The translations under genes were made by a program, and so were the position numbers. This document shows, in pieces, positions 3,372 through 20,509 of a DNA stretch of 22,645 nt (its first letter is position 1; the number at the start of each line of letters is the position of its first letter). This DNA comes from a virus. The notes below the pieces were generated by a model. It saw nothing but the letters and a program-made list of their open reading frames with translations. It ran no database searches and had not been told where the DNA came from. Location of the stretch: positions 1 through 22,645 of IMG/VR virus record IMGVR_UViG_3300006802_000634. One strand, given 5' to 3'.

Positions 3372-3399
3372 AGTATACCACAAAATGAGAGTTTGTCAA
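3372..3399 (-). promoter_or_regulatory. Sigma70-type promoter for the 3340-1738 operon
   Basis: TTGACA (3399-3394), 16-nt spacer, TATACT (3377-3372). The start codon is about 30 nt downstream of the -10. The stop of dam (3406-3404) lies 4 nt upstream of the -35. Confidence 0.8.
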
Positions 3400-3403
3400 G
3401 CGT

Positions 3404-4273
3404 TTATTCAAAGAAATCTTCAAAATTAATGATATTTTTTGATGGATTGAAAAGAAGAATCTCTAAGGCTTTCTTCGCTTCAAATCCTTCTTCGGTTTTC
3501 TTGCGCCGACCAGCAGTGTAAGTGATATCAAATGTCTTCATCATGGCGTTGCGGTTGTCAAAAAAACCATCGCCAGCGTCACGATTACACAACCAAACAT
3601 CTTTGTTTTTCTCAACAATATCGATAACTTTCTCAAGTTCACTATCTGGAAATGCTTGGTTATAATCAGCGAAACTATCTCTGTATGGTGGATCGTAGAA
3701 TGTGAAATCGGATACTGGAACGGCAGACCAATCTCCGCAGGTTATCACTACATTCTTATTGGTTAGTATTGTATGCCACGTTTCCAACACATCAAGATCA
3801 TACACAGAATCTTTTTGGTTCAACAGACCGCAAGGTGTTCCATAACGGTTATTGGTATTCTGGTTGATTTGCCAGATACCATTAAATCCTGTCTTCATCA
3901 GAAAGTATAGGGTTGCCGCTTCTTCCGGCATAGACCATTTCTGATAATGGTATGCGTGTTCGTTACGAAGACCGTAGTAGTATTTCTTGCGGTCTTCTTT
4001 GGATAGCGGAATGTACTTTTCTTGATACCTATCCAGAGTTTTCTTGAACAGATCATAGTCGTTCTTTATAGCCAGATAGATATTGATAAGTGGCTGATTG
4101 ATATCGTTAATGTAACTGGTTGTCGGATTATATTTCTCCATAACGTGAAGAAACATAGCGCCACCACCAAAGAACGGTTCGGAATATGTTTTAGCAGTTT
4201 CGGGGAAGTAAGGCTGGTAGTTTTTCAACATCTTGTTCTTACCACCAGCCCAAATGTATAACGGTTTAGTCAT
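3404..4273 (-). CDS. dam: DNA adenine methylase, Dam family (D12 class)
   Basis: A 289-aa N6-adenine methyltransferase that transfers a methyl group from SAM to adenine, by family probably in GATC. The alpha-group order is clear: WAGGK (8-12), the SAM loop EPFFGGGA (32-39), an NDIN acidic motif (56-59), the KTGFNG...RYGTPCG segment (127-149) typical of Dam, and catalytic DPPY (194-197). The length is close to E. coli Dam (278 aa) and T4 Dam (259 aa). It follows a putative nuclease gene and has its own promoter, whose -10 ends only 5 nt before the ATG, with no SD at normal distance, suggesting a leaderless mRNA. Methylation could protect phage DNA from host or self nucleases. The target site is inferred from the family, not shown. 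Confidence 0.93.
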   Translation of the reverse strand: MTKPLYIWAGGKNKMLKNYQPYFPETAKTYSEPFFGGGAMFLHVMEKYNPTTSYINDINQPLINIYLAIKNDYDLFKKTLDRYQEKYIPLSKEDRKKYYYGLRNEHAYHYQKWSMPEEAATLYFLMKTGFNGIWQINQNTNNRYGTPCGLLNQKDSVYDLDVLETWHTILTNKNVVITCGDWSAVPVSDFTFYDPPYRDSFADYNQAFPDSELEKVIDIVEKNKDVWLCNRDAGDGFFDNRNAMMKTFDITYTAGRRKKTEEGFEAKKALEILLFNPSKNIINFEDFFE

Positions 4274-4278
4274 ATACT

Positions 4279-4307
4279 ATTATACTATTTTCCTTTTTAT
4301 GTTGCAA
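4279..4307 (-). promoter_or_regulatory. Sigma70-type promoter of dam, apparently leaderless
   Basis: TTGCAA (4307-4302), 17-nt spacer, TATAAT (4284-4279), then AGTAT and the dam ATG at 4273. Transcription starting about 7 nt after the -10 would begin at or within one or two bases of the start codon. The only SD-like string (AAGGA) lies in the promoter spacer, too far upstream and outside the transcript. Confidence 0.65.
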
Positions 4308-4308
4308 C

Positions 4309-5172
4309 TTAAATCACAACATTGACATAACCATCTGCGATAGCTTGTGTATCACGCCCACGGCGCATCACAGGGCTAAACTTCAAGTTAAGATCGTCAA
4401 CATCATCAACATTAGCGATATTAACAACAATACGCTTGTCACCGTTGATATACATAATGTTGTTCCAACCGTCTACCTCTTTGTACTCACGCAAGGCAAA
4501 CTTGCCAAGTGCAGTGTTGAAAGCGATAGGATCAGAATAGACTTTTTCAACTTCGTCAGAAAGCGATTCAACATCACAGCCGACATACAGTTCTTTGAAG
4601 TAGTCACGATACTTGGAAGGATCGGTAACAGAAGCAATATGTTCTTCAAAAAGCTTATGGCTACGCTTACCAGGAACAGTGCCGTTCCAATACTTGGCGT
4701 TAAGGCGATCAATAAGACCCTTTTCAGTCTCACCAGTTTTCACAGGCTTGAGGCTTGCGCCGTCTTTTTTGATTTCAACCTTTTTGTTATCGTCGCCAAA
4801 CTCCCCATCGGAAGTGTTGGAAAAACGATAGTTAGAAAGAATAAGAGGCAATGCAAGTTCGCCAGCCCCAACACCTTTGCCGTTGTTACTCAACAGAATG
4901 CCAAACAGCTTCATGAAAATCGTATCCGTTTTCAGCACAGGGCTGATCAGATCATCGATCTTGCAACGAAAGTTTGTGTTGAGTATATCACTATCGGTGA
5001 GGTTACTGTCATCTTCAAGTATTGCGATTGTTTTCTCTGCACTGCCATAGCCAAGTGCTTCGAAGTAGATAAGATAAGCCTTGAAATCACTCACAAAACG
5101 ATCTGCGGCAACGTGACCGCAGATACCTCGTTTGATAAGTAGTTCATCGGCTCTGTTTAAAAGTTCTTTCAT
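4309..5172 (-). CDS. Putative PD-(D/E)XK-like nuclease next to dam
   Basis: A 287-aa protein with SD GAGGAG upstream. The central region has GVGAGELALPL (Glu105), then GEFGDDNKK (Asp127/128) and VEIKKDGASLKPV (Glu133-x-Lys135). An upstream Glu, an Asp about five or six residues before an E-x-K, and a following Ala-Ser-rich strand is the arrangement of PD-(D/E)XK nucleases. MutH and Sau3AI, which act at GATC, have a comparable D-x6-E-x-K. The flanking helical regions (1-95, 150-287) are not recognised. Because the next gene is a Dam-type methylase, a restriction-modification-like pairing is conceivable. Alternatively it is one of the nuclease-fold proteins of unknown role common in T4-like phages. 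The fold call is by motif inspection only. Confidence 0.45.
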   Translation of the reverse strand: MKELLNRADELLIKRGICGHVAADRFVSDFKAYLIYFEALGYGSAEKTIAILEDDSNLTDSDILNTNFRCKIDDLISPVLKTDTIFMKLFGILLSNNGKGVGAGELALPLILSNYRFSNTSDGEFGDDNKKVEIKKDGASLKPVKTGETEKGLIDRLNAKYWNGTVPGKRSHKLFEEHIASVTDPSKYRDYFKELYVGCDVESLSDEVEKVYSDPIAFNTALGKFALREYKEVDGWNNIMYINGDKRIVVNIANVDDVDDLNLKFSPVMRRGRDTQAIADGYVNVVI

Positions 5173-5220
5173 AATGAATCTCCTCTGTTAAGAACCTGAT
5201 GTTTTACCATCATAAGTACT

Positions 5221-5249
5221 ATTATATAGTATTATCTTTTGTATATCAA
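5221..5249 (-). promoter_or_regulatory. Sigma70-type promoter for the nuclease-like gene
   Basis: TTGATA (5249-5244), 17-nt spacer, TATAAT (5226-5221) followed by AGTA. The TGA stop of the 90-aa gene (5248-5246) is embedded in the -35 box. The leader is about 40 nt, with SD GAGGAG. Confidence 0.8.
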
Positions 5250-5518
5250 GTATTTTCTGGTACAAAAATCGGGAACTCTGCGTACCTATTATGTTTGCCT
5301 TTTTCGTTACGAGTCTCACGAAAACCGACATAGGCACCGTTCCAGAGTTTCACAAAGTACTGGACCCCTTCTTCTGGTCCCGGCCAGAGTTTACCGCTGG
5401 AATCAGCAATACGCTCACGAACTTCCTCGTCACCGAAACGGTCACGAGCTTCAATATCACGTTTCTTGTACTTCGGTAGAATAGTCCACCATACGAAATC
5501 TTCACGAAGTGTAGTCAT
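5246..5518 (-). CDS. Small protein of 90 aa, unknown
   Basis: Last gene of the metallopeptidase/VWA operon; its stop overlaps the next promoter's -35. The protein has aromatic-rich strands (DFVWWTILPKY, VQYFVKLWNGAYVGF) around a charged helix (RDRFGDEEVRERI) and ends in hydrophobic FPIFVPENT. No family is recognised. The aromatic and charged mix fits a small cytoplasmic alpha/beta protein. No signal peptide or membrane segment is seen. Confidence 0.65.
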   Translation of the reverse strand: MTTLREDFVWWTILPKYKKRDIEARDRFGDEEVRERIADSSGKLWPGPEEGVQYFVKLWNGAYVGFRETRNEKGKHNRYAEFPIFVPENT

Positions 5519-5530
5519 AGTTCTGTTTCC

Positions 5531-5770
5531 TTACCTTGCAGTTTCAAGTTCAAATTTAGCTTCGTCTTTAGTCAAACCTTTTTCACATAACATATTGAAA
5601 GCATCGTTTTTCTCAATATGATCAGGACTAGAATAAGCAGCGTATTTTTCCAAGATGTACAGTATTTCATCAACTTCTTCATCGGTGAACCGACTTACCC
5701 ATTGATATTTTTCAACACCTCCTGGAATCTGCTTCTTTCTATGTCTTTCTCGCCGTTCTTTCCTATCCAT
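5531..5770 (-). CDS. Small charged helical protein of 79 aa
   Basis: The N-terminus is extremely basic (MDRKERRERHRKKQIPGG, residues 1-18) and could bind nucleic acid. The rest is predicted helical and acidic (FTDEEVDEILYILEKYA, then an HIEKNDAF and GLTKDEAKFELE pair of helices resembling a small helix-turn-helix or EF-like arrangement). Its start overlaps the end of the 51-aa gene by 8 nt. Function unknown. Confidence 0.65.
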   Translation of the reverse strand: MDRKERRERHRKKQIPGGVEKYQWVSRFTDEEVDEILYILEKYAAYSSPDHIEKNDAFNMLCEKGLTKDEAKFELETAR

Positions 5771-5918
5771 TTTTCAAGTATTCTTCGAAGTATTTGGCGG
5801 CTTCGATTGTTTTGTGGTTACTCATATTCACAGACAAACCTTTTCCTTCAAAAATCTTTGCAGCAGCACGAAGGGCTTCCGCACGGATTTCGTATTCTTC
5901 CCAATCCTTATCTTCCAT
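5763..5918 (-). CDS. Small protein of 51 aa, unknown
   Basis: An open frame from an ATG at 5918, sharing one base with the upstream stop (TAATG), to a TAG at 5765-5763. It begins MEDKDWEEYEIRAEALRAAA, a strong amphipathic helix, followed by GKGLSVNMSNHK and a second helix EAAKYFEEYLKNG. It looks like a helical hairpin, possibly binding a host protein. Overlaps on both sides support it as a real gene. No known family. Confidence 0.7.
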   Translation of the reverse strand: MEDKDWEEYEIRAEALRAAAKIFEGKGLSVNMSNHKTIEAAKYFEEYLKNG

Positions 5919-6391
5919 TATGCACCCGCCTTCAACGCTTCCAAGAACTCTTCCTTGGATACCTTGTTGTTCTCTTTCGCTTGAACAACCTTCTCGTCGC
6001 TCAAGTCATATTCAGCAATATCGTCGTTATTGATAACGGTTTCTACTTCACCGAACACTTCGTCAAGAGAGTCACTGATATCCCAAGTATCATAACGCTT
6101 CATAGCCATATGCTCAAGCAACCACTCAAAGCTTTCACGGGAGCCTTCGCTAACGATAACTTTATCGATGGCATTGGACAAAGAGTTTTTGAAACGGCGT
6201 TTACGAGGCAAACCAAAGAACTCTGGCTCATAACTGTTACCATCTTCATCTTCGATGATAAACTCGTAATCCTCTGCCGCCATAGAACGCATACCATTCA
6301 GTTTCTGTACGCCTTCCTTGACCTTATCCTTGTCTTCGAACTCAACAACCTGATCTTCTTTGTCTTTGATTTTGACGGTAATCTTATACAT
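5918..6391 (-). CDS. Acidic protein of 157 aa, unknown
   Basis: The protein is strongly acidic. Residues 1-50 form an ubiquitin-like or beta-grasp-like stretch (MYKITVKIKDKEDQVVEFED, then a helix KVKEGVQKLNGM and strand YEFIIEDEDGN). A basic segment PRKRRFKN (about 62-69) interrupts it, and the rest is helical and acidic to EEFLEALKAGA. It lies third in the VWA operon, overlapping the coiled-coil gene by 8 nt. Regular co-transcription suggests a partner of the metallopeptidase/VWA protein, but there is no direct evidence. Confidence 0.65.
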   Translation of the reverse strand: MYKITVKIKDKEDQVVEFEDKDKVKEGVQKLNGMRSMAAEDYEFIIEDEDGNSYEPEFFGLPRKRRFKNSLSNAIDKVIVSEGSRESFEWLLEHMAMKRYDTWDISDSLDEVFGEVETVINNDDIAEYDLSDEKVVQAKENNKVSKEEFLEALKAGA

Positions 6392-6656
6392 CTTTCTTTA
6401 CCTTTTCGATGGTTTCACGAACCTTGTCGATGGCGTTACCCATCAACGGATTGGTGAGCATGGACTTGAGAAGTTCTTTGAGTTTTTCATTCTCTGCCGC
6501 CATACGCTCATATTCGTTGAGGTAATCTTCCAAAAGTTTCACAAGTTCTTCATTATGACCAAGATAGTCATTGACTTCCCGCTCAAGTTTCTCCACTTCC
6601 GGTAAAGGTCGTGGAGTAACTTTCACGGTTACTGATGATGATTTTCCTTCACTCAT
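6384..6656 (-). CDS. Coiled-coil protein of 90 aa
   Basis: Residues 18-70 form a long coiled coil with heptad spacing (VEKLEREVNDYLGHNEEL, then LLEDYLNEYERM and ENEKLKELLKSML). A Ser-rich start (MSEGKSSSVTVKV) and a second charged helix at the end (VRETIEKVKKDV) flank it. It is translationally coupled to the metallopeptidase/VWA gene by an ATGA overlap. It is probably an oligomerising adaptor for that protein or its targets; this is inferred from position only. Confidence 0.65.
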   Translation of the reverse strand: MSEGKSSSVTVKVTPRPLPEVEKLEREVNDYLGHNEELVKLLEDYLNEYERMAAENEKLKELLKSMLTNPLMGNAIDKVRETIEKVKKDV

Positions 6657-7966
6657 TTGCTTGCTTCCTCATAGTTGACCGTTATGCCAAACGGGGCAAC
6701 GGGAGAGTTATCACCAGCGTATCCGCCAGTATGGACAACGAACACGGTGTCGCAGTAGTCTTCGTCACCCCAAGTACCGCAAGGATACCCATCGGTGAAC
6801 ATAATGAACCGCTTCGGCTGAATGTCATGAGCCTTCATATGCTCCCAGCAGCACTCAAACATCGTACCGCCACCACCGTTGAAAGGATAGTGGTCCATAT
6901 CATCGGCGTTCATTTCGTCAAAGTCTTCGTCGTTGTAAACTTTCGTATCAAAGGTGAACAACTTCAACTTGAAGGAAGGATACAGCGTCATAATGCCTTT
7001 GATTTCGCTGATGAAGTCACGCATCTGCGTTTCGCCAACCGAACCAGAAAGGTCAATCGCAACTACGATATCAATGGTATCGTCGTTGATCATACCCGGC
7101 AAACAAGCGCCAGTGTGCCAAGCTTTACGGGACGGACGCATAAATGAGAAGTCCGATTTGATGGTGGACTGAATATCCATCTGCAAGTACTCACGCCAAT
7201 CAACCTTCGGCTCTTCCAGTTCTTTCAGAATACGCTGAATACCACCAGGGAGATTACCAGCTTTGGGATCAGACTTGGCAGCGTTGACTACAGCAGCACG
7301 GAGTTCGTCACGAATCTGCTGCTTCTGTTCTTCGCTCAACTTGGGCTTGGACTTTGAAGTTTTGTTACCGTTTTCATCGGTTTCGATATCACCATCGCCT
7401 TCGCCTTCACCATCTTCGCCTTCAAGATGCTCGTCAAGAACCTGTTTCATCAGTTCTTCCAAATCAATCTTTTCGGCGTTTTCGTAGAGGTAGTTGTAAA
7501 CCTCGTCAGAAGACCAGCCAGCAAACTTTGCATCATACAGGCAAGGAACAGTGGTGATACGGTCACCAAGGCGCTGCTGAATGAGGTCAGCGTTCACAAC
7601 ATAATCTTGTGCGATGTTAGACAACTGCGGGTCATACTGGTGATCCTTGGTGCGGCCCATATGGTCATACACACAGTGCAGCACTTCGTGACCGAACAAG
7701 AACACCAGTTCTTCGTCGGTCAACTGCTCAATGAAACGTGAGTTGTAATAGAAATGGGCACCGTCAGTAGCAGCAGTCGGGCACCACGCATCCGCATTTA
7801 CCAGCGGAAGACGGGAGCAAAGCTGACCGAAAAACGGAGACTTGAAAAGCAGCATCGTTTTGGCGTCCATAAGACGGTCACGGGAACGCTCGTCAAGAAT
7901 CGGATCGATTTCCAGACCGACCAGTTCACTCTTTTTATCTGCTTGGGTAGTGGTTTCTGCGGACAT
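6653..7966 (-). CDS. DUF2201-type metallopeptidase-like plus VWA-domain protein
   Basis: A 437-aa protein with two modules. The N-terminal half (about 20-165) has a zinc-type HEVLH motif at 93-97 with His102 five residues on (HExxHx4H), as in the DUF2201 N-terminal putative metallopeptidase domain. A very acidic linker (about 177-205) follows, then a von Willebrand A domain (about 298-430) with MIDAS residues DLSGS (305-309), the GGGT loop (365-368) and TDG (391-393). In bacteria such proteins work with MoxR-type AAA+ ATPases as metal-insertion or chaperone systems. No ATPase is encoded here, so a partner may lie elsewhere or in the host. It heads a six-gene operon with its own promoter and SD GGAGAT. 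Phage role unknown; the architecture call is strong. Confidence 0.85.
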   Translation of the reverse strand: MSAETTTQADKKSELVGLEIDPILDERSRDRLMDAKTMLLFKSPFFGQLCSRLPLVNADAWCPTAATDGAHFYYNSRFIEQLTDEELVFLFGHEVLHCVYDHMGRTKDHQYDPQLSNIAQDYVVNADLIQQRLGDRITTVPCLYDAKFAGWSSDEVYNYLYENAEKIDLEELMKQVLDEHLEGEDGEGEGDGDIETDENGNKTSKSKPKLSEEQKQQIRDELRAAVVNAAKSDPKAGNLPGGIQRILKELEEPKVDWREYLQMDIQSTIKSDFSFMRPSRKAWHTGACLPGMINDDTIDIVVAIDLSGSVGETQMRDFISEIKGIMTLYPSFKLKLFTFDTKVYNDEDFDEMNADDMDHYPFNGGGGTMFECCWEHMKAHDIQPKRFIMFTDGYPCGTWGDEDYCDTVFVVHTGGYAGDNSPVAPFGITVNYEEASK

Positions 7967-7970
7967 TGAT

Positions 7971-8022
7971 ATCTCCTAACTGTCTATAGTATGATTATAC
8001 ACTAATTTCAGCATATATCAAG
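7971..8022 (-). repeat. 52-nt promoter repeat, copy 1 (drives the VWA operon)
   Basis: It matches copy 2 (8178-8229) at 49 of 52 positions. It contains TTGATA (8021-8016), a 16-nt spacer, TATAAT (7999-7994), a short leader and the SD TAGGAGAT of the downstream gene. The TAA stop of the 58-aa gene (7997-7995) lies inside the -10 box. Confidence 0.85.
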
Positions 8023-8171
8023 TACTTTCCGTCACTTTTTTTCACCCGATATAGGCCAAATTTACGGTAATAATCTGGCTTGCCACCGTGTTTGAGACAG
8101 TATTTCCAAGCACCGCTGCCCGTAGAAAACAACACTTCGTTTGGGTTTTTGATGTATTTTGGATCAATCAT
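7995..8171 (-). CDS. Small protein of 58 aa between duplicated promoters
   Basis: It runs from an ATG at 8171 with SD TAGGAGAT to a TAA inside the next promoter's -10 box. The sequence opens MIDPKYIKNPNEVLFSTG, has GAWKYCLKHGGKPDYYRK in the middle, and ends in a hydrophobic strand whose codons form the promoter (KYLIYAEISV). Both ends are set by the two copies of the 52-nt repeat, so the gene is a cassette with its own promoter. Part of its C-terminus is therefore constrained by promoter function. No family is recognised. Confidence 0.72.
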   Translation of the reverse strand: MIDPKYIKNPNEVLFSTGSGAWKYCLKHGGKPDYYRKFGLYRVKKSDGKYLIYAEISV

Positions 8172-8177
8172 TTTATT

Positions 8178-8229
8178 ATCTCCTAACTGTCTATAGTATG
8201 ATTATACACTATTCTCAGCATATGTCAAG
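8178..8229 (-). repeat. 52-nt promoter repeat, copy 2 (drives the 58-aa gene)
   Basis: TTGACA (8228-8223), 16-nt spacer, TATAAT (8206-8201), leader and SD TAGGAGAT. It differs from copy 1 at three positions, one of which gives the better -35 (TTGACA instead of TTGATA). The TGA stop of the 97-aa gene (8227-8225) is within the -35. Confidence 0.85.
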
Positions 8230-8518
8230 CGTTTTCTGAAAGTTTTTTGATTTTGCTAATCCGACTTTCCAAATCACGTATATACTCGTCTTTCTGTGCC
8301 AGCTTTTGGCGAAGTTCTTCTTCAATAACAGATTGTTTCCGTTTGGATTCTTCTTTCATACGGTAAATCTGGCCTATTTGAGCGTCGGAATGATATTGAG
8401 CAAGTTCTTTTTCGGCAATCTTTTTTGCTTCAAGTTTGCTGGTTGCTTCAACAACCATTATAGCCTCATAGTGAGGACCGTATTCATAACTTACTTCGTA
8501 TTCTTTGAGCTTAGTCAT
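8225..8518 (-). CDS. Small protein of 97 aa with C-terminal coiled coil
   Basis: I place the start at the ATG at 8518, preceded by SD TTAGGAGAG; an in-frame ATG 20 codons further upstream has no SD and is unlikely. Residues 1-35 (KEYEVSYEYGPHYEAIMVVE, then ATSKLEAKKIAEKE) show the strand-strand-helix pattern of small phage proteins of the Y-x-V...V-x-A-x-S-x-x-E-A type. Residues 50-97 form a charged coiled coil (KRKQSVIEEELRQKLAQKD). It has its own promoter at 8590-8617. Function unknown. Confidence 0.72.
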   Translation of the reverse strand: MTKLKEYEVSYEYGPHYEAIMVVEATSKLEAKKIAEKELAQYHSDAQIGQIYRMKEESKRKQSVIEEELRQKLAQKDEYIRDLESRISKIKKLSENA

Positions 8519-8589
8519 AGCAACTCTCCTAAGAGTATTACGTCTTTCGCTTATGCAGGGCACGTGGCATTCCCTCAACTTCTAAATAC

Positions 8590-8617
8590 AGTATAACATA
8601 GTTAGATGGTTTGTCAA
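8590..8617 (-). promoter_or_regulatory. Sigma70-type promoter for the 97-aa gene
   Basis: TTGACA (8617-8612), 16-nt spacer, TATACT (8595-8590). The leader to the ATG at 8518 is about 65 nt, longer than at other promoters here, and includes SD TTAGGAGAG. The upstream gene's stop (8626-8624) is 6 nt before the -35. Confidence 0.8.
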
Positions 8618-8623
8618 GTGTTT

Positions 8624-8995
8624 TTATCCACCTAAGTATACTTTTAATACTGGGATTAGGCTCTGCATAAAAGCACCAGCCAAGAAAACATTCATCACAA
8701 TCATAGCACGGTCATTCCACAGAACACCAACGTATGCCCAACCAATCATACTAATAACACCCAAAACAACATTCCAAGGTGTGATATCAGCAGCAGTAAG
8801 CATTGCACCGACGATACCTATTAATGCCGCCGCCCACTTGACGAACCAAGAGACATCATGAATAGGAGTTTGAGTTACAACAGTAGCAACGGCAAGCTGT
8901 TCTTCATAGTGTTCTACTTGTTGCTGTAGTTCTTCTACTGTTTGCGCTTCTGTGTTAGCTTCACTTATTAGCTGTTCAACTTCATCTTTAGTCAT
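8624..8995 (-). CDS. DUF6552-like membrane protein with N-terminal coiled coil
   Basis: A 123-aa protein. I choose the ATG at 8995 over the GTG at 8998. Residues 1-40 form an acidic coiled coil (VEELQQQVEHYEEQLAV). Three hydrophobic segments follow: about 50-70 (WFVKWAAALIGIVGAM), about 74-94 (WNVVLGVISMIGWAYVG) and about 98-118 (IVMNVFLAGAFMQSLI). The WxVKW and GxxWNDRAxIVxN motifs match, from memory, the DUF6552 family of small phage membrane proteins. It is the last gene of the long clamp operon and overlaps the previous gene by 8 nt. A holin role is possible in principle from size and topology, but no lysis genes are beside it. Confidence 0.7.
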   Translation of the reverse strand: MTKDEVEQLISEANTEAQTVEELQQQVEHYEEQLAVATVVTQTPIHDVSWFVKWAAALIGIVGAMLTAADITPWNVVLGVISMIGWAYVGVLWNDRAMIVMNVFLAGAFMQSLIPVLKVYLGG

Positions 8996-9383
8996 CACGG
9001 GTGCCAGCTAATCTTTCCCAAGTTTTTAGTTTCTCGCTAAGATCCTGGTATTCGTCATATAGTTTTTTTAGTTTGGCATGCATTTCTAAACGCTCTGGGT
9101 CTTCCACGAGTTCTGGTGGGATTTTCAATGCCCGTTCAATGCGCTCAAGCGTTTCACCAATAGACTTACCATTTAGTTTTAGGTCACCTTGGATTTCAAC
9201 ATCACCATATGCTGCGTTAGTAGTCCACGGAGATACGTTAAACACTCCTGAACTATCAGCGGTGGTGAAAGTCAAGTCACTTGTTTTGATAGTCGAATCT
9301 CCAACAGTGATAGTACTAGTATCGGTTACCGGGATATAACTGTAGATTATATCGCCGTTATCATTGTAGTAGTCTTCTGCCAT
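8988..9383 (-). CDS. Probable phage structural protein of 131 aa
   Basis: The first 75 residues are Thr/Ser-rich short strands (TSTITVGDSTIKTSDLTF), typical of beta-structured virion or fibre-associated proteins. GDVEIQGDLKLNGKSIGET (60-78) then leads into a helical region ERIERALKIPPELVEDPERL and a coiled-coil end (LKKLYDEYQDLSEKLKTW). This combination is, from memory, common in small virion-like proteins of T4-like marine phages. It follows gmd by one base. It is odd in an operon otherwise of early and metabolic type. Exact function unknown. Confidence 0.62.
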   Translation of the reverse strand: MAEDYYNDNGDIIYSYIPVTDTSTITVGDSTIKTSDLTFTTADSSGVFNVSPWTTNAAYGDVEIQGDLKLNGKSIGETLERIERALKIPPELVEDPERLEMHAKLKKLYDEYQDLSEKLKTWERLAGTRDD

Positions 9384-9384
9384 T

Positions 9385-12863: not shown

Positions 12864-12864
12864 T

Positions 12865-13053: not shown

Positions 13054-13056
13054 ATC

Positions 13057-13302
13057 TCACTCACAAGGTTTTGCTGTTGATACTTTGCCAACTGTTCCGT
13101 CAGCCGATAGTTGCTTGAAGAAGACATATTTGGTATCTACTCCAAAAGGTCCAAAGGCGATCTCGCCGTTGTCTGCTGGGTTTTGTGTTACCTCATGGCA
13201 ACCAACCCACTCATACACTGGTTGTCCACCAGCTTTGGTCCAGAGATCACCTGGGGCGCAAGCTCCAAGTAACAATGCACTCGCTACTACTAATGTTTTC
13301 AT
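13057..13302 (-). CDS. Small phage lipoprotein
   Basis: An 81-aa precursor with a clear lipobox: MKTLVVASALLLGAC, cleavage before Cys15. The mature protein (67 aa) would be lipid-anchored on the periplasmic side of the inner or outer membrane. It contains two further Cys (35 and 80) that could form a disulfide, and short beta segments (PVYEWVGCHEVTQ, TKYVFFKQLS). It is sandwiched between operon genes, its start overlapping the upstream stop (TAATG), and is not beside an Rz-type gene, so it is unlikely to be Rz1. Known phage lipoproteins of this size include superinfection-exclusion factors that shield surface receptors; that role is a hypothesis. Confidence 0.8.
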   Translation of the reverse strand: MKTLVVASALLLGACAPGDLWTKAGGQPVYEWVGCHEVTQNPADNGEIAFGPFGVDTKYVFFKQLSADGTVGKVSTAKPCE

Positions 13303-13586
13303 TAGTCTTCATCCTCTTCTAAAACTTTATGTTCAATGTCGTAACCACCTTTGCGGTCAGTGAACCAATCTTCTTCCATGTCTTCGTAGTCAAAGCAACC
13401 ATCTGACCAATAGACATATTCACCCATTTCTTCGGGGTCAAGTTCCTGAAATTCTTCCCAAGTGCCTTGGAAATGTTCATCATCACCATCAGTCTCTTTT
13501 CTATATTCATTGAAATCTTCTTCTGTGATTTCGTAAGTCTTGTATAGATGGACTTGATGATATTCCACTCGTTGAAGTTTAATCAT
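13302..13586 (-). CDS. Highly acidic protein of 94 aa, unknown
   Basis: Nearly a third of the residues are Asp or Glu (for example DGDDEHFQGTWEEFQELDPE and the EEDED end). The first 30 residues contain strands (LQRVEYHQVHLYKTYEI). The strongly negative surface resembles DNA-mimic proteins used by phages to block host nucleases or DNA-binding proteins, but acidic composition alone is weak evidence. It follows the sliding clamp gene directly and precedes the lipoprotein. Confidence 0.65.
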   Translation of the reverse strand: MIKLQRVEYHQVHLYKTYEITEEDFNEYRKETDGDDEHFQGTWEEFQELDPEEMGEYVYWSDGCFDYEDMEEDWFTDRKGGYDIEHKVLEEDED

Positions 13587-13595
13587 TTGCTTTCC

Positions 13596-14327
13596 TTATT
13601 TTTGTTGTGCTGGCAAGATGTATTCGTATGTTGCCAAGCCACTGTTTACGTTAATTTGAGCGGCACCATCGTCGCTGAACTGCATAGTAATCTCACCAGG
13701 TAGGTTTAGGATTTTCATTACCTGATCGACAGGCCAGTTCCAACCACGCTTCAACTCGCCTTTTACCTCGTGCTGAAATACAAAGTTACCAGCGTGTGAG
13801 GAATGATCACCAAAGTAGAACACTAGGTTCTTATCTTCTGTCTTGGCGACGAAGGTATCTTCTTCACTGTTGGCTTGCGCTTGGTACTTGAACCGTTCAA
13901 TACTCGCAGAACTAGGTTCAAAGTCTACATGCCAGTTAGCGCCACGGAACTTGACGTTCTTGATTTTCTCGTTGATGATTTCACTGGACATGAAACGATA
14001 GTCGTTTTTGAAGTCACCATCACTGTTTTCAAAGTGGATTCCAACAGGGGTTTCCTCTCCATTGCGTTCTTGTGTGGTTAGTTCCAGTTTAGCATCTTCC
14101 TGATATGGTGGAAGGTTTAGTAGGGTGTTTAGTTTGCCCAGATTTGGCATGCCAAACACACCTGTGAATTCTGTGACGGGTTTATGGAATGTTGCTGATA
14201 CAACAACTGAACGATCATCGGCAATGCCGTTCACAGTTGTGCTTTCATCGTTTCCGTCAATTTTTACAAGGTCGATAAATCCCAACCCATATGTATGGGT
14301 GACAATATCACGTAATGCGTCTTTCAT
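13596..14327 (-). CDS. Sliding clamp, DNA polymerase processivity factor (gp45-like)
   Basis: A 243-aa protein, near the 228 aa of T4 gp45. The clamp is a ring that holds the phage polymerase on DNA and in T4 also activates late transcription. Recognisable features are the N-terminal helix KDALRDIVTHTYGLGFID, the EFTGVFGMPNLGKLNTLL region (53-70), which matches the interdomain helix area of gp45-type clamps, the FMSSEIINEKI segment, and the C-terminal strand ATYEYILPAQQK. The match to T4 gp45 is distant, and is helped by the polymerase gene two genes upstream. It heads its own operon with a promoter at 14359-14388 and SD CGGAGAT. Clamp-loader genes are not in the window. Confidence 0.8.
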   Translation of the reverse strand: MKDALRDIVTHTYGLGFIDLVKIDGNDESTTVNGIADDRSVVVSATFHKPVTEFTGVFGMPNLGKLNTLLNLPPYQEDAKLELTTQERNGEETPVGIHFENSDGDFKNDYRFMSSEIINEKIKNVKFRGANWHVDFEPSSASIERFKYQAQANSEEDTFVAKTEDKNLVFYFGDHSSHAGNFVFQHEVKGELKRGWNWPVDQVMKILNLPGEITMQFSDDGAAQINVNSGLATYEYILPAQQK

Positions 14328-14358
14328 TAAGAAATCTCCGTAATTGTTTATAGATACT

Positions 14359-14388
14359 ATTATAATACTTCGAGAAACAAGAAATCAA
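14359..14388 (-). promoter_or_regulatory. Sigma70-type promoter for the clamp operon
   Basis: TTGATT (14388-14383), 18-nt spacer, TATAAT (14364-14359), then AGTA. The TGA stop of the 310-aa methyltransferase (14387-14385) is within the -35. The leader of about 24 nt carries SD CGGAGAT. Confidence 0.72.
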
Positions 14389-15317
14389 TATATTTTTTTG
14401 ATTTTACCTAAAGTTTGTCCATGTCTTTGCGATATAAGTTCGCCAGGTTTTCTAAACTCAATGGTGCTGATATTTGCTGAAATATCTTCTGTAACAATAT
14501 CATCAAAGCCCATCCCATAAACAAGTGGTTTCATATAGTGTTCCGTGTTGAACAGACGATAATAACGAAAGATAGTCATATCAAGACTGCTTTTCAATAG
14601 GCAGTTGTTATAGGTCAACAGAACAACGCCACCTGGACGGAGAAGGTTATAGAACCCTTTTAGATATAACTTGATTGTATCCAGCGGTAAACGTTCAAAG
14701 AAACCAAAGCTAAAAATCATACCAAACTGTCCATGTGGGAGATTATCAAAGTTTCCATCACCTAGCATTTGATATGTTCGTAATCTTTTTTGATAATCGG
14801 GGTTGAATATTTTCTCTGTTTGTTTCAAAGTCTTTCTATGTTTGTCTACGATATAAAGTGGGTCAAGAGCAACCAATGACTTGGTGAAATGATTGATACC
14901 GGGGCTTACCTCTAATCCTGGAACTTTCCAAGAGGTCAAAGCACCAATCTTTCCCGTTATTATCTCTTTTACATCACTGGTCATGTGAATACTTTTGTAA
15001 TATTCTTGCGTATCTTCAAAGTTATCGTGTTTTACTTCGGTGTCGTAATACTTGTAACTATTCTGGATAAAATCTACTTCGTATTGGCGAATATTATCTT
15101 GGAATGACTTATCAAGTGCTTCAATATTGTCTAGGTTGATACTATTGTGTGCTTGGGTTAGATCGTTATAAACGGTTGATGCTGCATCCTGTGGATACTT
15201 AAAGTTATGAACAGCAGATGAGTATTGACTTACTTGATCTAACAGACCCCTGTAGTCAATCTTCTTGAATTCATCATAATCAGTAACTAACTTGAAGTAT
15301 TCATCTGCCTTGCTCAT
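14385..15317 (-). CDS. Class I SAM-dependent methyltransferase-like protein
   Basis: A 310-aa protein. The C-terminal half carries a methyltransferase fold: motif I GLEVSPGINHF (134-144), motif II LYIVD (154-158), a GDGNFDNL acidic loop, FGMIFSFGFFERLPLD (198-213) and LLRPGGVVLLTY (225-236). The Asn/Cys-containing loop after strand 5 (YNNCLLKSS) differs from DNA methylases, so the substrate may be a small molecule, RNA or protein. The N-terminal 125 residues are helical and unrecognised. The start at ATG 15317 has no visible SD, but a TATAAATA box lies 6 nt upstream. The polymerase stop is 21 nt upstream. A similar gene occurs, as I recall, near replication genes of marine T4-like phages. Confidence 0.72.
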   Translation of the reverse strand: MSKADEYFKLVTDYDEFKKIDYRGLLDQVSQYSSAVHNFKYPQDAASTVYNDLTQAHNSINLDNIEALDKSFQDNIRQYEVDFIQNSYKYYDTEVKHDNFEDTQEYYKSIHMTSDVKEIITGKIGALTSWKVPGLEVSPGINHFTKSLVALDPLYIVDKHRKTLKQTEKIFNPDYQKRLRTYQMLGDGNFDNLPHGQFGMIFSFGFFERLPLDTIKLYLKGFYNLLRPGGVVLLTYNNCLLKSSLDMTIFRYYRLFNTEHYMKPLVYGMGFDDIVTEDISANISTIEFRKPGELISQRHGQTLGKIKKIY

Positions 15318-15322
15318 ATGTG

Positions 15323-15330
15323 TATTTATA
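15323..15330 (-). promoter_or_regulatory. T4-late-like promoter box TATAAATA before the 310-aa methyltransferase
   Basis: A perfect 8/8 match to the T4 late consensus, ending 5 nt before the start codon at 15317. T4 late transcription starts about 5-6 nt downstream of the box, so the resulting RNA would be leaderless. No SD is present at this start, which supports the idea. It could still be a chance AT-rich match. Confidence 0.4.
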
Positions 15331-15338
15331 TGCGTACA

Positions 15339-18002
15339 TTATTCAAAGTCAAATAACGAACTAAATGTGTTAGAAACGTCAGTCTTATGCTTCAAGTCCC
15401 ACTTCAATACATTCAATAGGTTACCCACTTTCTTGTCTACAATGGCTTTCATCATAGCCTCGTCATCAAAGGGAAGCTCCTTGAACCATTCTGGAATTTT
15501 ATGTTCGTCAATAGGGAACGCTACTTTATTATAACCAAGTTGGTTATCTTTTAGATCACAAACAATAGTTTTCTGTCCGTCCAAAATATCCATTGAGTAA
15601 TGATCATCATAAAACTTCTTCAACTTATTCCAATGAATGGCGGCGGAAACGTGACCGGGGATGGTTACACCCTTCTGTCCTTTCTTCTCTTCGTAAATCT
15701 TGGTGTACTTCGTTAGGTTGTTCACACGCTTCGGTGTGCCTTTCTCCCAAGATGGACGCTCTTTGAACTCACGCTTGAAGTTCAGAATCTTCTCACAAAC
15801 TTCGTCTTCGCCTTTCCCCGTGAGAACATCAATCAATAGTTCCATAAGAAAGTCTTGCATATAACTAGGCGTATCGCTTCGTTTTAGGTCCATGCCCATA
15901 GCTTTGACTTTACCAGGCTTACCGTCTACATCACGGCGGGTGCCCTCATCGTCATAAATCATAAGACCATAACGCTTTTTCTTGATGAATAAACCAGTGG
16001 ATGCAATCAGTTCCAAACCGCCCTCAATGATAGAACCCATTTCGTTCGGGCAATTAAACGCCTGTTTCATAAAATCAGGGAAACTTTCATTGACTGCTTC
16101 TGCTACTTGATTGTATACCTCAATGCACATTTCCTTGGACCAATCTGGCGTGTCTTTTAGAACAGGCCAACCAGAGAAGTATACACTATCTGTATCACCG
16201 TATACCACGCACTTACCAGCGTTATCATATTCACCAGTGAATGCTTCGTTTACAAATGCGCTCATATGTTTGGTGATAAGGCGTCCAGATAGAGTAGTTG
16301 ACTGTCCAATATCGAACACATAGAAACGGCAATGCTCGTTGAGGATTGCTCCATAAAGAGAATTAAGATTGATCTTTTTCACCAACTGTCTCTTATCCCA
16401 GAATGCTTTTTCTTCTGGGTCAGTAGCTTCTTTCTTCTTGGCTTGTAGTTGCTGGCGTTCTGCATACCATTTCTCAAGGATACCGGGAACGATACCTTTG
16501 TGAGTGTAGTCAAAGATAGTTCCATTGCCAGATAGAATCCATTTCTTACCACCGTGGAATACCAGATCATAAACCTCATCGGCACTATGAACTGTTGGCT
16601 CACCTTTCATCCAATCCAAATGAACCTGTCTTGTTTCATCTTTTTTCATAACATATTGGTATTCTAAAGAACCAAATACACCTTCCCAAGCACCAGGAAA
16701 TGTATATTTCGGTCCTTGCGCCATATAATCAGCAATCATCTTTTTAGTGTATGTTGGACGCAACTGTGCTACCAAAGTCTCTGGACTCATATTCAGCGCA
16801 CGAATAGCAGATGGATATAGCGAGTTGATATCAATAGCACCAATGTATTCGTGTAATCCTTTCTGTGGATACGCAACGTGGGCACCAGCGGCACGAGTAT
16901 CAAAGTCTTCGTCAATCTTCACTTTGTTAGGAACAACCAAGTCCATAGAGTGAGCAAAGTTGATCAACGCTTGCTCCGTAACACCAACAGCACCAAGTGT
17001 CTTCGGTAGTAACACTGTGTTATCGTGCGCCAGTTCGTTAGTTAGGTCAATGAACTTTAGCTTGTCTTCCAAACGCTTCAGGATCATTGTGTCTTGGATG
17101 TTGTATTCTACAAACTTACGGAAGTCATTGTTATACAACTGGTCCAATGTGCCTTCGTACTGAACCTTACGCTCGTCTAGTTCATACTCGGCGATAGCAT
17201 CCAATGAATAGCTGTGCATTTCGTGGTAGGTATATTGCTGATACAGTTCCATACTATCCAAGTGGATGCGTCCGTGCAGATCAAACGAAGTCTGCATATT
17301 TCCGTATTTGTTCTCAAATACACGCTCTTTTGGTAGTTGGTCAAGCAAACAGAAACGGCGTGTATCGTTCTTACTCATAATACGAGTAACACGGTTTACA
17401 AGGTATGGAATATCGTATCCCTCTGAGTTCCAGCCAGTTAAAACATCTGCATCTTCGATAATCTCAAGGAATGTCTCAAGCATATCTATCTCATTTTCGA
17501 ATAGATATACGTTATCGATATCCTTGACCTCTTCTTTGGCTTCTTCCATAGTCAATGTACGTGGTGGGATAGCCAAACATATCATTGTCTCTAACCAAGA
17601 ACAATAAAGACCGATTGCCGTTACTTTGTTAAAGGGGTCAGTGACTTCCGCAAACCCGTGTGTAGGTGAGAAGTCAACCTCAATATCGAAATAGCAAATA
17701 TTCAGTTTTGGGGCAATAGCATCTAGATAGTTTTTCTCAAGTGTTTTATTGACGATGTTGATATCGCTTTCCCAAATCCGTTTATTGGATCGGATAGCAA
17801 TCTCTTTCTGGTATTGCTTGTAGTCGTTAGTCGTAAACCTAGTCACGTTATTGCGAAAGATAGTTCTATTCTTACCCTTCGGGTCATCATAATAGAAGGA
17901 CCACTCACAAGGGTAGTCCTTCACAACTCTCTTTCCGTCTATTCTTTCTATAACATGAACAACATTCTTACGTCTGTTATGTATAGCGTCAATATAACTC
18001 AT
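15339..18002 (-). CDS. Family B DNA polymerase (T4 gp43-like)
   Basis: An 887-aa replicative polymerase, nearly the 898 aa of T4 gp43. The 3'-5' proofreading exonuclease is intact: Exo I DIE (106-108), Exo II NSEGYDIPY (192-200) and Exo III YNIQDT (300-305). The polymerase motifs are intact: motif A DINSLYPS (391-398), motif B KKINLNSLYG (542-551) and motif C YGDTDS (601-606). The last residues SNTFSSLFDFE resemble the C-terminal clamp-binding peptide of gp43 (SLFDMFDF), consistent with the gp45-like clamp gene downstream. No intein, intron or frameshift is present. It is the fourth gene of an operon starting at 19203 with the DsbA-like gene. It replicates the phage chromosome with clamp and loader. 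Confidence 0.97.
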   Translation of the reverse strand: MSYIDAIHNRRKNVVHVIERIDGKRVVKDYPCEWSFYYDDPKGKNRTIFRNNVTRFTTNDYKQYQKEIAIRSNKRIWESDINIVNKTLEKNYLDAIAPKLNICYFDIEVDFSPTHGFAEVTDPFNKVTAIGLYCSWLETMICLAIPPRTLTMEEAKEEVKDIDNVYLFENEIDMLETFLEIIEDADVLTGWNSEGYDIPYLVNRVTRIMSKNDTRRFCLLDQLPKERVFENKYGNMQTSFDLHGRIHLDSMELYQQYTYHEMHSYSLDAIAEYELDERKVQYEGTLDQLYNNDFRKFVEYNIQDTMILKRLEDKLKFIDLTNELAHDNTVLLPKTLGAVGVTEQALINFAHSMDLVVPNKVKIDEDFDTRAAGAHVAYPQKGLHEYIGAIDINSLYPSAIRALNMSPETLVAQLRPTYTKKMIADYMAQGPKYTFPGAWEGVFGSLEYQYVMKKDETRQVHLDWMKGEPTVHSADEVYDLVFHGGKKWILSGNGTIFDYTHKGIVPGILEKWYAERQQLQAKKKEATDPEEKAFWDKRQLVKKINLNSLYGAILNEHCRFYVFDIGQSTTLSGRLITKHMSAFVNEAFTGEYDNAGKCVVYGDTDSVYFSGWPVLKDTPDWSKEMCIEVYNQVAEAVNESFPDFMKQAFNCPNEMGSIIEGGLELIASTGLFIKKKRYGLMIYDDEGTRRDVDGKPGKVKAMGMDLKRSDTPSYMQDFLMELLIDVLTGKGEDEVCEKILNFKREFKERPSWEKGTPKRVNNLTKYTKIYEEKKGQKGVTIPGHVSAAIHWNKLKKFYDDHYSMDILDGQKTIVCDLKDNQLGYNKVAFPIDEHKIPEWFKELPFDDEAMMKAIVDKKVGNLLNVLKWDLKHKTDVSNTFSSLFDFE

Positions 18003-18011
18003 TTATTCTCC

Positions 18012-18287
18012 TTATAGGGCATTCCATAGTCCCAGAATATTCATACCAGTATACCATGCCATCAATGAAAAAAGCCATATCATTTTTCGTACCCACATAG
18101 TATACATAAGAAGAACACTACCAACCAAGTATCCGCTGAATACAAAGATAAGTGGCGGGGTAGGGGATAGGAAAGCAAAAGCAAAACTTGCGATAACACT
18201 TGCGATAGTTGCGATTGCCTCACACCAGAAAAGCACCTTGCTTTCTTCCCAAGAATGCTTCCAGTAATCCAGTATTTGTTGTAGCAT
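18012..18287 (-). CDS. Small membrane protein with three predicted segments
   Basis: A 91-aa protein from an ATG at 18287 that overlaps the upstream TGA (TGATG), with AGAGG before it. Hydrophobic segments lie at about 20-43 (EAIATIASVIASFAFAF), 47-66 (LIFVFSGYLVGSVLLM) and 70-90 (MIWLFSLMAWYTGMNIL). It is not recognised as a named holin. The position directly upstream of the polymerase gene, in a replication operon, suggests an early function at the inner membrane. Confidence 0.7.
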   Translation of the reverse strand: MLQQILDYWKHSWEESKVLFWCEAIATIASVIASFAFAFLSPTPPLIFVFSGYLVGSVLLMYTMWVRKMIWLFSLMAWYTGMNILGLWNAL

Positions 18288-18937
18288 CAATGCCTCTTGA
18301 ATAAGATTGGAAACCCATTACCGCCGATATTGGTATGGCTTTCGCTGTTTAGGATTTCACCAGCATATCTATCGGCACTATGTGTGTAATCTGCGCTGGT
18401 AATCTTTCCTGATGGGTCTGGTTTCTGGTCTTCCATACCAAACTTCTTTTTGAGTTCATCGTTCTTATAGATGGTATATTCTTCTGGCGTCATTCTGCCG
18501 ATACTTTCACTTCGTTGCTGAATGTATCCCATCTGTTGTTTATCAACGCCAACGAATGCTGTTCCCCAACGGACACCATTTTCAGCAATAACCATAAACA
18601 CATCGCCAGCATTTATCTCAATCTGTGATTTGTTATCTGGTCCAAGCCAACGGGTATCGCCATCATACTTACGAACCTCAAACTTCTGTGTCTTCTTTAG
18701 CCCAAGAGGATTATCAAGTTTTGCTTGGAGAATCATTCGTTGGGCTTCTTGTTCTGCTGTAGGGAACTTTTCATCACGATAGCGTTTTAGATGCGGCTTA
18801 GTCCATTTGGGAACCATAGCCACATCTATTTCCGCATCGGTCATTCCTTCAAGTCTATCCAATACTTCTTGGATATTCTTTTTTGGCTTCTTTAGTGTAG
18901 CCAGAAAGAATGGGTATGAACCTCTACCAGCAACCAT
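18287..18937 (-). CDS. Unknown protein of 216 aa
   Basis: Not recognised. It starts MVAGRGSYPFFLATLKKPKK and has a charged helical region to about residue 80 (DAEIDVAMVPKW, RDEKFPTAEQEAQRMILQ). A beta-rich middle follows (about 80-135: KFEVRKYDGDTRWLGPDNK, INAGDVFMVIAENG, WGTAFVGVD). The C-terminal part has low-complexity polar stretches (ITSADYTHSADRYAG). It shares a one-base overlap (TAATG) with the DsbA-like gene and TGATG with the membrane gene. It is probably part of the replication/transcription operon. Confidence 0.6.
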   Translation of the reverse strand: MVAGRGSYPFFLATLKKPKKNIQEVLDRLEGMTDAEIDVAMVPKWTKPHLKRYRDEKFPTAEQEAQRMILQAKLDNPLGLKKTQKFEVRKYDGDTRWLGPDNKSQIEINAGDVFMVIAENGVRWGTAFVGVDKQQMGYIQQRSESIGRMTPEEYTIYKNDELKKKFGMEDQKPDPSGKITSADYTHSADRYAGEILNSESHTNIGGNGFPILFKRH

Positions 18938-19203
18938 TAGATTTTATTGACTGTAGCCAATAGGGTTTCCATCATTTCATGGTCTTCGGATTTATTACCA
19001 AAGTCATTCTTATGTGCTGTCTTCACAGCTTTCTTTAAGACGCTTGGCTTGATTTGCATTTCTTCTGCAATAGCCTTGATAGTATCATTTAGACCTTCGG
19101 TTAGGTCTTCGATTTCTTGGAAGGTTGTAATTCCATCACGGAATAACATATCTAGTTTAGCCTTTTCCTCTTGGGAGAAGACACGATTAGTCGCTGAGTT
19201 CAT
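18937..19203 (-). CDS. DsbA-like double-stranded DNA-binding protein
   Basis: An 88-aa helical protein, the size of T4 DsbA (89 aa), a dsDNA-binding factor involved in late transcription. The pattern of an N-terminal charged part (NRVFSQEEKAKLDMLFRD), a helix EIEDLTEGLNDTIKAIAEEM, the IKPSVLKKAVKTAHKNDF helix-turn-helix-like segment and an acidic end matches T4 DsbA and relatives in general terms (helix, LGVDGKMFNRLLALYHKDN segment in T4). SD TAGGAG is 6 nt upstream, and it is the first gene after the promoter at 19229-19258. The assignment rests on size and pattern. Confidence 0.62.
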   Translation of the reverse strand: MNSATNRVFSQEEKAKLDMLFRDGITTFQEIEDLTEGLNDTIKAIAEEMQIKPSVLKKAVKTAHKNDFGNKSEDHEMMETLLATVNKI

Positions 19204-19228
19204 TATATACTCCTATGTTGATTTAGTT

Positions 19229-19258
19229 ATTATACCACAATGTTGATGTGTTTGCCAA
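19229..19258 (-). promoter_or_regulatory. Sigma70-type promoter for the DsbA-like/polymerase operon
   Basis: TTGGCA (19258-19253), 18-nt spacer, TATAAT (19234-19229). The TAA stop of the 57-aa gene (19232-19230) lies inside the -10 box. The leader contains SD TAGGAG. Confidence 0.68.
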
Positions 19259-19403
19259 GATGTTTTTCTGGTTTCTTCTCATATTCTAATGAGTTTTTAG
19301 TTTTATCTTCTTCTTTCTTTGGTGACTTGCGATCATCTATAAAGTTTTTGTCACGTTCATATGCGTAACGAATATACTTTGTTTTTGCTGGTGTTATTTT
19401 CAT
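19230..19403 (-). CDS. Small basic protein of 57 aa
   Basis: An open frame from an ATG at 19403, overlapping the upstream TGA (ATGA), to a TAA inside the next promoter's -10 box. It is rich in Lys: MKITPAKTKYIRYAYERDK, then a run of charged residues (SPKKEEDKTKN) and a hydrophobic end (LGKHINIVV). The sequence looks partly disordered. Function unknown. The hydrophobic end is partly dictated by the promoter below it. Confidence 0.7.
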   Translation of the reverse strand: MKITPAKTKYIRYAYERDKNFIDDRKSPKKEEDKTKNSLEYEKKPEKHLGKHINIVV

Positions 19404-20464
19404 CGTTTCGATATACGGGAAATCCAGTTTTTCTCTGGTCTGCGAACACTTTCAAAGTGAAATGCTCTACCACGAATACGGGAATAACCTTCTTCGGCAG
19501 TTCCAACAGAAAAGTTTCCAAGATTGATTTCTTCGCCATCATTCAGTAGAAGATATACATCAGTATCACCTTCTGGTTTTAGAAGGGCACCATCTTGGTC
19601 ATACTGTTTTATCCACTGTCTTAACAATCCCTTTAGGCGACCATTATCTGCTGGGCGTCCAACGATAAAGATAGTATCTTCTTCAACAGCTACTTCTTCT
19701 GGTGTTCCTTGGTTCTCAATCCATCCACCATCAATAAAGAAATATCCATAACCAGCTTTCTTTACTTGTGCGGCAAGATGCTTGTTACGACGAACATTTT
19801 CTTCGTAGTTCTCTTGACCACCACGGAATGCTGTGATGAAGGCAACAGGGATTTCATCATTACTCAGATGCTGGTATGCACGACCAATAGATGCTTCGGT
19901 CAATAAGTCATAATCCCCCATAAAGTCAGCGGCACTTTCTACAATACGGATTTTGATATTGGAGTTACGTTCTAGGCCAATAGCTTCCATAATATTACCT
20001 TCGGCATAGTCACGAATGCTATTGCTTTTCTTGGTAACCATATTTTCATCCCATCCAATAGATAGTTTGATATCACCGAACTTACCTGACTTTACATCTT
20101 CACGCCCAATATGGTATTCAGCCCATTTTTGTAGTAGGTCATAGGTTTTATTAGTCATGCGACCAATGTTGATTGACCAAGTATCTTCACGACGATAAAG
20201 ACGGGTTCTAATCCAACCTTTACGGAAAAGGTTTTTCATAATCTCTTCACGGGCTTGACCTTCTGAACCGACAGTTTCGCCATACTTATCGTATAGTTCT
20301 TTGATTTGTTCTTCGGTATATCCAAACTTTTCTGGGTGTTCTACTACTGCTGTAATATGAATACCGGGTGTTACATCTAAGATTTCGCCACGGGGGGAAA
20401 CCCAGTATGCCATACCGGGAGCAAAGTTTGGGTTAGTTGGTGCAGTCATTTCACTCAATCTCAT
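19400..20464 (-). CDS. DUF3293-like protein of 354 aa
   Basis: The start at ATG 20464 has SD CGGAGA and its own promoter. The N-terminal half (1-130) has a beta-rich region (MAYWVSPRGEILDVTPGIH) and a RKGWIRTRLYRREDTWSI strand pair. The central part (about 205-280) reads PVAFITAFRGGQENYEENVR, HLAAQVKKAGYGYFFIDGGW and DTIFIVGRP. An xxTAF...N...L...G-G...G-G-W...xFxV pattern matches my memory of DUF3293, a family of unknown function. The last 70 residues are beta-rich. The N-terminus MRLSE could also be read as a short propeptide (LxE), but this is weak because the gene has an early-type promoter. Function unknown. Confidence 0.6.
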   Translation of the reverse strand: MRLSEMTAPTNPNFAPGMAYWVSPRGEILDVTPGIHITAVVEHPEKFGYTEEQIKELYDKYGETVGSEGQAREEIMKNLFRKGWIRTRLYRREDTWSINIGRMTNKTYDLLQKWAEYHIGREDVKSGKFGDIKLSIGWDENMVTKKSNSIRDYAEGNIMEAIGLERNSNIKIRIVESAADFMGDYDLLTEASIGRAYQHLSNDEIPVAFITAFRGGQENYEENVRRNKHLAAQVKKAGYGYFFIDGGWIENQGTPEEVAVEEDTIFIVGRPADNGRLKGLLRQWIKQYDQDGALLKPEGDTDVYLLLNDGEEINLGNFSVGTAEEGYSRIRGRAFHFESVRRPEKNWISRISKR

Positions 20465-20481
20465 AACAATCTCCGTTCCCT

Positions 20482-20509
20482 ATTATAGCATATTATTTGC
20501 TGTTGTCAA
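20482..20509 (-). promoter_or_regulatory. Sigma70-type promoter for the DUF3293-like gene
   Basis: TTGACA (20509-20504), 16-nt spacer, TATAAT (20487-20482), then AGGGAA and the ATG at 20464. The TAA stop of the 480-aa gene (20495-20493) lies in the spacer. Confidence 0.8.

Follow-up and report, generated by a model that had tools for sequence, protein, structure and literature searches.

The stretch analysed is a linear virus record of 22,645 bases from IMG/VR (IMGVR_UViG_3300006802_000634, positions 1 to 22,645; hereafter the window), in which all but one of the called genes lie on the minus strand and in which nine leftward sigma70-type promoters are predicted at gene junctions (Table 1). 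An earlier reading made from the letters alone (the sequence-only reading) had listed these nine promoters, six of them with the stop codon of the upstream gene inside a promoter element and three with the stop 1 to 6 nucleotides (nt) from the -35. All nine promoters and all six overlaps were recovered exactly as given, and the remaining three stops lie 4, 1 and 6 nt away. The TGA codons of genes 5246-5518, 8225-8518 and 14385-15317 form bases 2 to 4 of the -35 hexamer, while the TAA codons of genes 7995-8171 and 19230-19403 form bases 3 to 5 of TATAAT; it is equally true that TGA is contained in TTGACA and TAA in TATAAT. The observation is thus confirmed and the pattern is real but ordinary, while a special meaning is unsupported. 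The window corresponds to positions 3536-26180 of G001, a contig of 94,519 bases, with an identity of 99.965 %, 8 mismatches and 0 gaps, and we take this contig to represent the same phage.

Table 1. Predicted promoters, adjoining genes and direct repeats in the window (hexamers and spacer length in nt are given for each promoter)
Feature	Position	Strand	Gene downstream	Upstream stop or remark
Promoter TTGACA-16-TATACT, TGn	3372..3399	-	3056-3340	stop of 3404-4273 4 nt before -35
D12-class adenine methyltransferase gene	3404-4273	-		downstream of promoter 4279..4307
Promoter TTGCAA-17-TATAAT	4279..4307	-	3404-4273	stop of 4309-5172 1 nt before -35
Promoter TTGATA-17-TATAAT	5221..5249	-		TGA of 5246-5518 within -35
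90-amino acid gene	5246..5518	-		stop in -35 of next promoter; C-terminus ENT
Direct repeat of 53 bp, copy 1 (promoter and leader)	7970..8022	-		94-96 % identical to copy 2 (window against G001)
Promoter TTGATA-16-TATAAT	7994..8021	-	6653-7966	TAA of 7995-8171 within -10
58-amino acid gene between two promoter copies	7995..8171	-		codon 52 within -35
Direct repeat of 53 bp, copy 2 (promoter and leader)	8177..8229	-		flanks 58-amino acid gene with copy 1
Promoter TTGACA-16-TATAAT	8201..8228	-	7995-8171	TGA of 8225-8518 within -35
97-amino acid gene	8225..8518	-		stop in -35 of next promoter; C-terminus ENA
Promoter TTGACA-16-TATACT, TGn	8590..8617	-		stop of 8624-8995 6 nt before -35
Promoter TTGATT-18-TATAAT	14359..14388	-	13596-14327	TGA of 14385-15317 within -35
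310-amino acid gene, weak sub-cutoff Methyltransf_12 match	14385..15317	-		stop in -35 of g13596 promoter
Promoter TTGGCA-18-TATAAT, TGn	19229..19258	-	18937-19203	TAA of 19230-19403 within -10
57-amino acid gene	19230..19403	-		stop in -10 of next promoter
Promoter TTGACA-16-TATAAT, TGn	20482..20509	-	19400-20464	TAA of 20493-21935 in spacer
480-amino acid gene, DUF5661 match	20493..21935	-		stop in spacer of next promoter

The nine sites match 10 to 12 of the 12 hexamer positions, with the hexamers 16 to 18 nt apart, and an extended -10 (TGn) is found in 4/9 of them (3372, 8590, 19229 and 20482). All seven window sites scoring at least 11 of 12 are leftward and located at junctions. In G001, the strict pattern TTGAYN-N15-18-TATAMT matches the coding strand 23 times and the opposite strand never, with a reversed-pattern control giving 4 and 0 matches, respectively; the strict matches include 7/9 of the window promoters, the misfits being those at 4279 (TTGCAA) and 19229 (TTGGCA). 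Among the G001 promoters with 16-nt spacers, an extended consensus of approximately AAnCnC, often AAACRC, precedes TTGACA. Two of the downstream genes, 13596-14327 (g13596; 243 amino acids) and 18937-19203 (g18937; 88 amino acids, with a weak match to a transcriptional-regulator PHROG), could be traced through relatives, using two lists of 80 of the matching loci each (171 junction rows, cut to 151 by similarity). Among these listed loci, a promoter scoring at least 10 precedes g13596 at 46/76 deduplicated loci (2/76 on the opposite strand) and g18937 at 51/75 (4/75 on the opposite strand), while a threshold of 9 admits some chance sites (25/76 and 16/75 on the opposite strand, respectively). 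The alternative that AT-rich gene ends match the promoter pattern by chance finds some support in looser scans: a 9-of-12 scan did not rise above shuffles (46 versus 47.7 sites in the first 20 kb of the window and 6 versus 5.9 in the rest), and a looser scan of G001 gave 40 coding-strand sites, of which 14 lie within genes, against 10 sites on the opposite strand. It is, however, opposed by the extended consensus around the hexamers of the 16-nt class, by the 23 versus 0 strand asymmetry of the strict matches and by the promoters preceding g13596 and g18937 in many relatives, for which the opposite strand served as control. The sites are supported, though not proven, as promoters, and their being fortuitous appears very unlikely.

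The sequence-only reading regarded the placement of stops within promoter elements as an economical solution. Under blind placement, where the stop is slid up to 20 nt in either direction, stops do touch a hexamer more often than expected, both at the nine window junctions (5/9; 2.07 expected) and across G001 and three related contigs, G002, G004 and G008 (34/95; 19.05 expected). This excess would be expected if a stop within the -35 or -10 were favoured by selection, with one sequence performing two functions. It arises, however, because TTGA contains TGA and TATAAT contains TAA, and blind placement ignores these built-in stops; this null was hence replaced by one in which the gene enters the same promoter in any of the three frames, given that its stop falls inside the promoter. 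The four-contig count under this null excludes promoters which lie inside genes, are antisense or have no gene within 150 nt downstream, and only stops falling within the promoter enter the null because promoters wholly within genes had been excluded beforehand. An earlier version of the frame null, which also counted stops past the promoter (8.3 expected in G001 against 11/16 observed; P 0.12), was discarded.

With the frame randomised over the real promoters, the excess vanishes. Hexamer stops number 5/6 in the window (4.5 expected), 11/16 in G001 (11.33 expected; P = 0.70) and 34/50 in the four contigs together (34.17 expected; P = 0.60); when the doubtful promoter at 61030 is left out of the 26 junction promoters of G001, the count becomes 10/15 against 10.3. 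Likewise, the first and second sets of orthologous junctions, those of g13596 and g18937, give 14/26 (15.3 expected) and 12/19 (14.0 expected), or 26/45 against 29.3 when combined. A viral-wide sample of 146 promoters from at least 120 loci, drawn with an exact TGn pattern, comprises 61 promoters without an upstream open reading frame (ORF) of 60 codons, 44 with the stop upstream, 12 with the stop past the promoter and 29 with the stop inside, of which 17/29 fall in a hexamer (18.3 expected). No excess of hexamer stops over the frame-random expectation was thus seen in any set tested. The overlap differs from that at randomised junctions only as long as position is randomised, equals it when the frame is, and the notion of a special or selected solution finds no support in these counts. 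We consider selection for economy unlikely.

At orthologous junctions, the predicted promoter goes with the downstream gene while the position of the upstream stop varies. In the case of g18937, this stop lies within the -10 in the window, extends across the -35 end at locus L003, precedes the -35 by 1-2 nt at L005 and L006, and is located beyond the whole promoter in G008. L053 has no upstream ORF of 40 codons with its end close to the promoter, while at L101 the sole ORF ending there, of 42 codons and closed by the -35 TGA, is taken for chance. Before g13596, the stop lies in the -35 in the window, G004, G008 and L003 (at offset 1 in all four, measured from where the -35 begins) and in the spacer at L053 and L101 (offset of 14 in both), and the upstream ORF at L005 runs through the promoter. 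The tail of the upstream protein varies in length; in gene 14385-15317 and its orthologues, the GQTL-x-KI motif is followed by 4 residues in the window, 9 at L053 and 55 at L101, while in the L003 orthologue this motif is absent and the common KPGEL is followed by 72 residues, against 16 in the window (counted by hand). Similarly, the stop upstream of gene 19400-20464 falls within the spacer in the window, while in G004 the promoter is weaker and the stop precedes its -35 by 1 nt. A quick tree built from 76 g13596 proteins requires at least eight changes of the state 'stop in -35' over 60 labelled rows, a count made without a shuffled-label control. The claim that the overlaps arose repeatedly and independently is supported in part by these changes. 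The window and its sister L138, however, have the same state, and their TTGATT with the same TGA looks inherited; L200 (in G008) is distant from them in the tree.

The repeated changes at a single orthologous junction also argue against selection for economy. Another alternative is a functional coupling, in which ribosomes finishing at the -35 or -10 would affect polymerase access, such that translation of the upstream gene regulates the next promoter. Coupling would fit with the overlap of gene end and g13596 promoter being kept in the window, G004, G008, L003, L053 and L101 despite the differing tail lengths. The exact position of the stop nevertheless varies, with offsets of 1 and 14 and a stop past the promoter at L005; it lies upstream of the promoter in 31/60 of the g13596 junctions with a called promoter, and ribosomes act on the RNA of the upstream transcript rather than directly on promoter DNA. 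Such coupling is extremely improbable.

The spacer lengths were considered for a related effect. Spacers of 16 or 18 nt would place TGA and TAA in different frames and close two of the three upstream frames, while a 17-nt spacer is predicted to close only one. The 26 junction promoters of G001 comprise twelve with 16-nt, five with 17-nt and nine with 18-nt spacers, so that 21/26 have 16 or 18 nt (15/16 where a gene runs in and 6/10 elsewhere). Suggestive in G001 alone, this two-frame stop cassette is contradicted by the relatives, as 17-nt spacers account for 21/44 promoters in G004, the nearest relative, 9/10 in G002 and 36/43 in G008; genes also run into promoters in these three contigs despite the 17-nt spacers. 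They further account for 35/45 of the promoters with a stop inside at the orthologous junctions and for 102/146 in the viral-wide sample. That the 16- and 18-nt spacers are favoured for closing two frames was hence rejected and is judged very improbable.

The sequence-only reading held that the C-termini of these small proteins are shaped by promoter function, and this stands in a weak sense only, in that the tails of the overlapping genes would be promoter DNA. Of the eight differences between the window and G001, one falls within a -35 (position 8017), where TTGATA in the window and TTGACA in G001 correspond to Ile52 and Thr, respectively, in protein 7995-8171. The orthologue tails of gene 14385-15317 vary as described above, while gene 5246-5518 ends in ENT, with its TGA in the -35, in both the window and G004; in G002, TTG ACA is read in frame and the stop falls in the spacer. 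The upstream consensus of the 16-nt class, read in the frame of the TGA, would similarly yield tails such as the ENA of gene 8225-8518. The simplest illustration is the duplicated 53-bp cassette, in which one sequence is read in two frames with two built-in stops, copy 2 closing gene 8225-8518 by TGA and copy 1 closing gene 7995-8171 by TAA. The 58-amino acid gene between the copies looks as if it had been inserted together with them, or through recombination between them.

The most probable explanation, to which we assign a probability of about 0.86, is that the stops are by-products of promoter sequence and random reading frame in a compact T4-type phage, rather than a selected device. Promoters of host sigma70 type resembling T4 early promoters, and presumably acting early, would serve the downstream transcription units, while pressure for compaction may have squeezed non-coding DNA to little beyond promoter and leader, so that upstream genes reach or enter the promoter. 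Median gap lengths in the window are 53 nt for the nine junctions with a promoter and -1 nt for the 25 others. A gene entering in the frame T-TGA-CA would end at the -35 TGA, and one entering in the frame of the -10 TAA would end at that TAA, this frame differing from that of the TGA with a 16- or 18-nt spacer and coinciding with it at 17 nt. A gene in the remaining frame would end in the spacer or run through. As an overlapping gene would take its final few codons from promoter DNA, changes in the promoter would alter the tail of the gene.

Several observations weigh against this explanation. L006 is without a good promoter at g13596, and 16/76 of the g13596 junctions lack a promoter even when the loose threshold is applied. 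The window, G004 and G008 have the -35 TGA of gene 14385-15317 in common, which could reflect constraint and is a further point in favour of selected economy. A first viral-wide run (80/120 loci, laxer ORF rules) showed fewer hexamer stops than expected (8/18 versus 11.4 and 6/15 versus 9.9), a deficit opposite in direction to the excess claimed by the sequence-only reading and not repeated in the full 120-locus run. When the orthologous sets are pooled, frame 0 seems to be depleted (5/54 stops reaching the promoter), which would not be expected from random entry, although these rows share ancestry and frame-0 read-through beyond approximately 25 nt into the next gene is uncounted. Finally, gene calls were made with a simple caller of our own.

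We read the phage as T4-type on the basis of its sequence. The T4-type late box TATAAATA occurs eight times on the coding strand of G001, with 7/8 outside same-strand genes, and is absent from the other strand. Two late-type boxes, at window position 15330 and G001 position 44680, have the common flank AATGTACGCATATAAATA, and the former starts 13 nt upstream of the start codon of gene 14385-15317. The window codes for a family-B DNA polymerase (PHROG 262); 2,590 phage records match, and the 12 matches listed are to large phages at 42-45 % identity, with hosts among these 12 including Sinorhizobium, Agrobacterium, Salicola, Vibrio, Erwinia and Serratia. A search for near phage records for the window gave none, and nothing was returned by a phage-record search with protein 14385-15317, a PDB search for the g13596 family or tRNA and Rfam searches. 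A gene for a SegE-type GIY-YIG homing endonuclease lies on the opposite strand (1297-1734, plus strand), and its 5' end is overlapped by a leftward promoter-like site (1332-1304), the spacer of which holds a late-type TATAAATA box. The C-terminal part of the product of gene 19400-20464 matches an S-adenosylmethionine lyase family (Pfam; 29.2 bits against a cut-off of 28). Gene order differs between window 5246-7966 and G004 124430-127942: gene 5246-5518 and its promoter stand directly before gene 6653-7966 in G004, while in the window the genes at 6653 and 6384 precede those from 5918 to 5246.

For this seemingly designed pattern, the analysis supplies a correct null. Stop triplets are part of the sigma70 hexamers, and any compact genome will therefore give the impression of gene ends 'built into' promoters; testing such overlap requires that the reading frame, not the position, be randomised. 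A small concrete effect is that a promoter polymorphism can change the tail of the preceding protein. A literature search found no papers on the overlap of stop codons and promoters among the word combinations tried, and the words 'stop codon' are not found in the available part of a paper on promoter motifs and coding regions (PMC1939733).

The early promoters of T4 are host sigma70 promoters with UP, -35, TGn and -10 elements, according to the accessible part of PMC2988021. To the extent of that description, the predicted promoters resemble them in the strong -35 and -10, in the stretch rich in A that immediately precedes the -35 of the G001 16-nt class and, in part, in the TGn, present in four of the nine window promoters, and differ in that 16- or 18-nt spacers predominate in G001. 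The nearest known module, by analogy, would be the promoter early stem-loops (PeSLs), described in the part of PMC4503421 available as mobile promoter-terminator cassettes of T4-type phages. The likeness, as far as that account goes, lies in short promoter modules at junctions of a T4-type phage and in the 53-bp copy duplicated around a small gene; the difference is that a scan found no terminator-like stem-loop at the nine window promoter junctions. In G001, a hairpin-like stretch with a T-run (80133-80250), resembling a terminator paired with a promoter, can be seen by eye just before the promoter at 80191, where the scanner makes no call. As regards gene shuffling at promoters, the excess of gene-order change is not significant (adjacency kept at 3/22 promoter junctions versus 38/122 others; P = 0.12). 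In compact bacterial and phage genomes, it is common for a promoter to lie within the 3' end of the gene before it. Compared with these, there is nothing distinctive in the present case, and the same arrangement is found here, including promoters wholly inside the upstream gene (L005 and G008).

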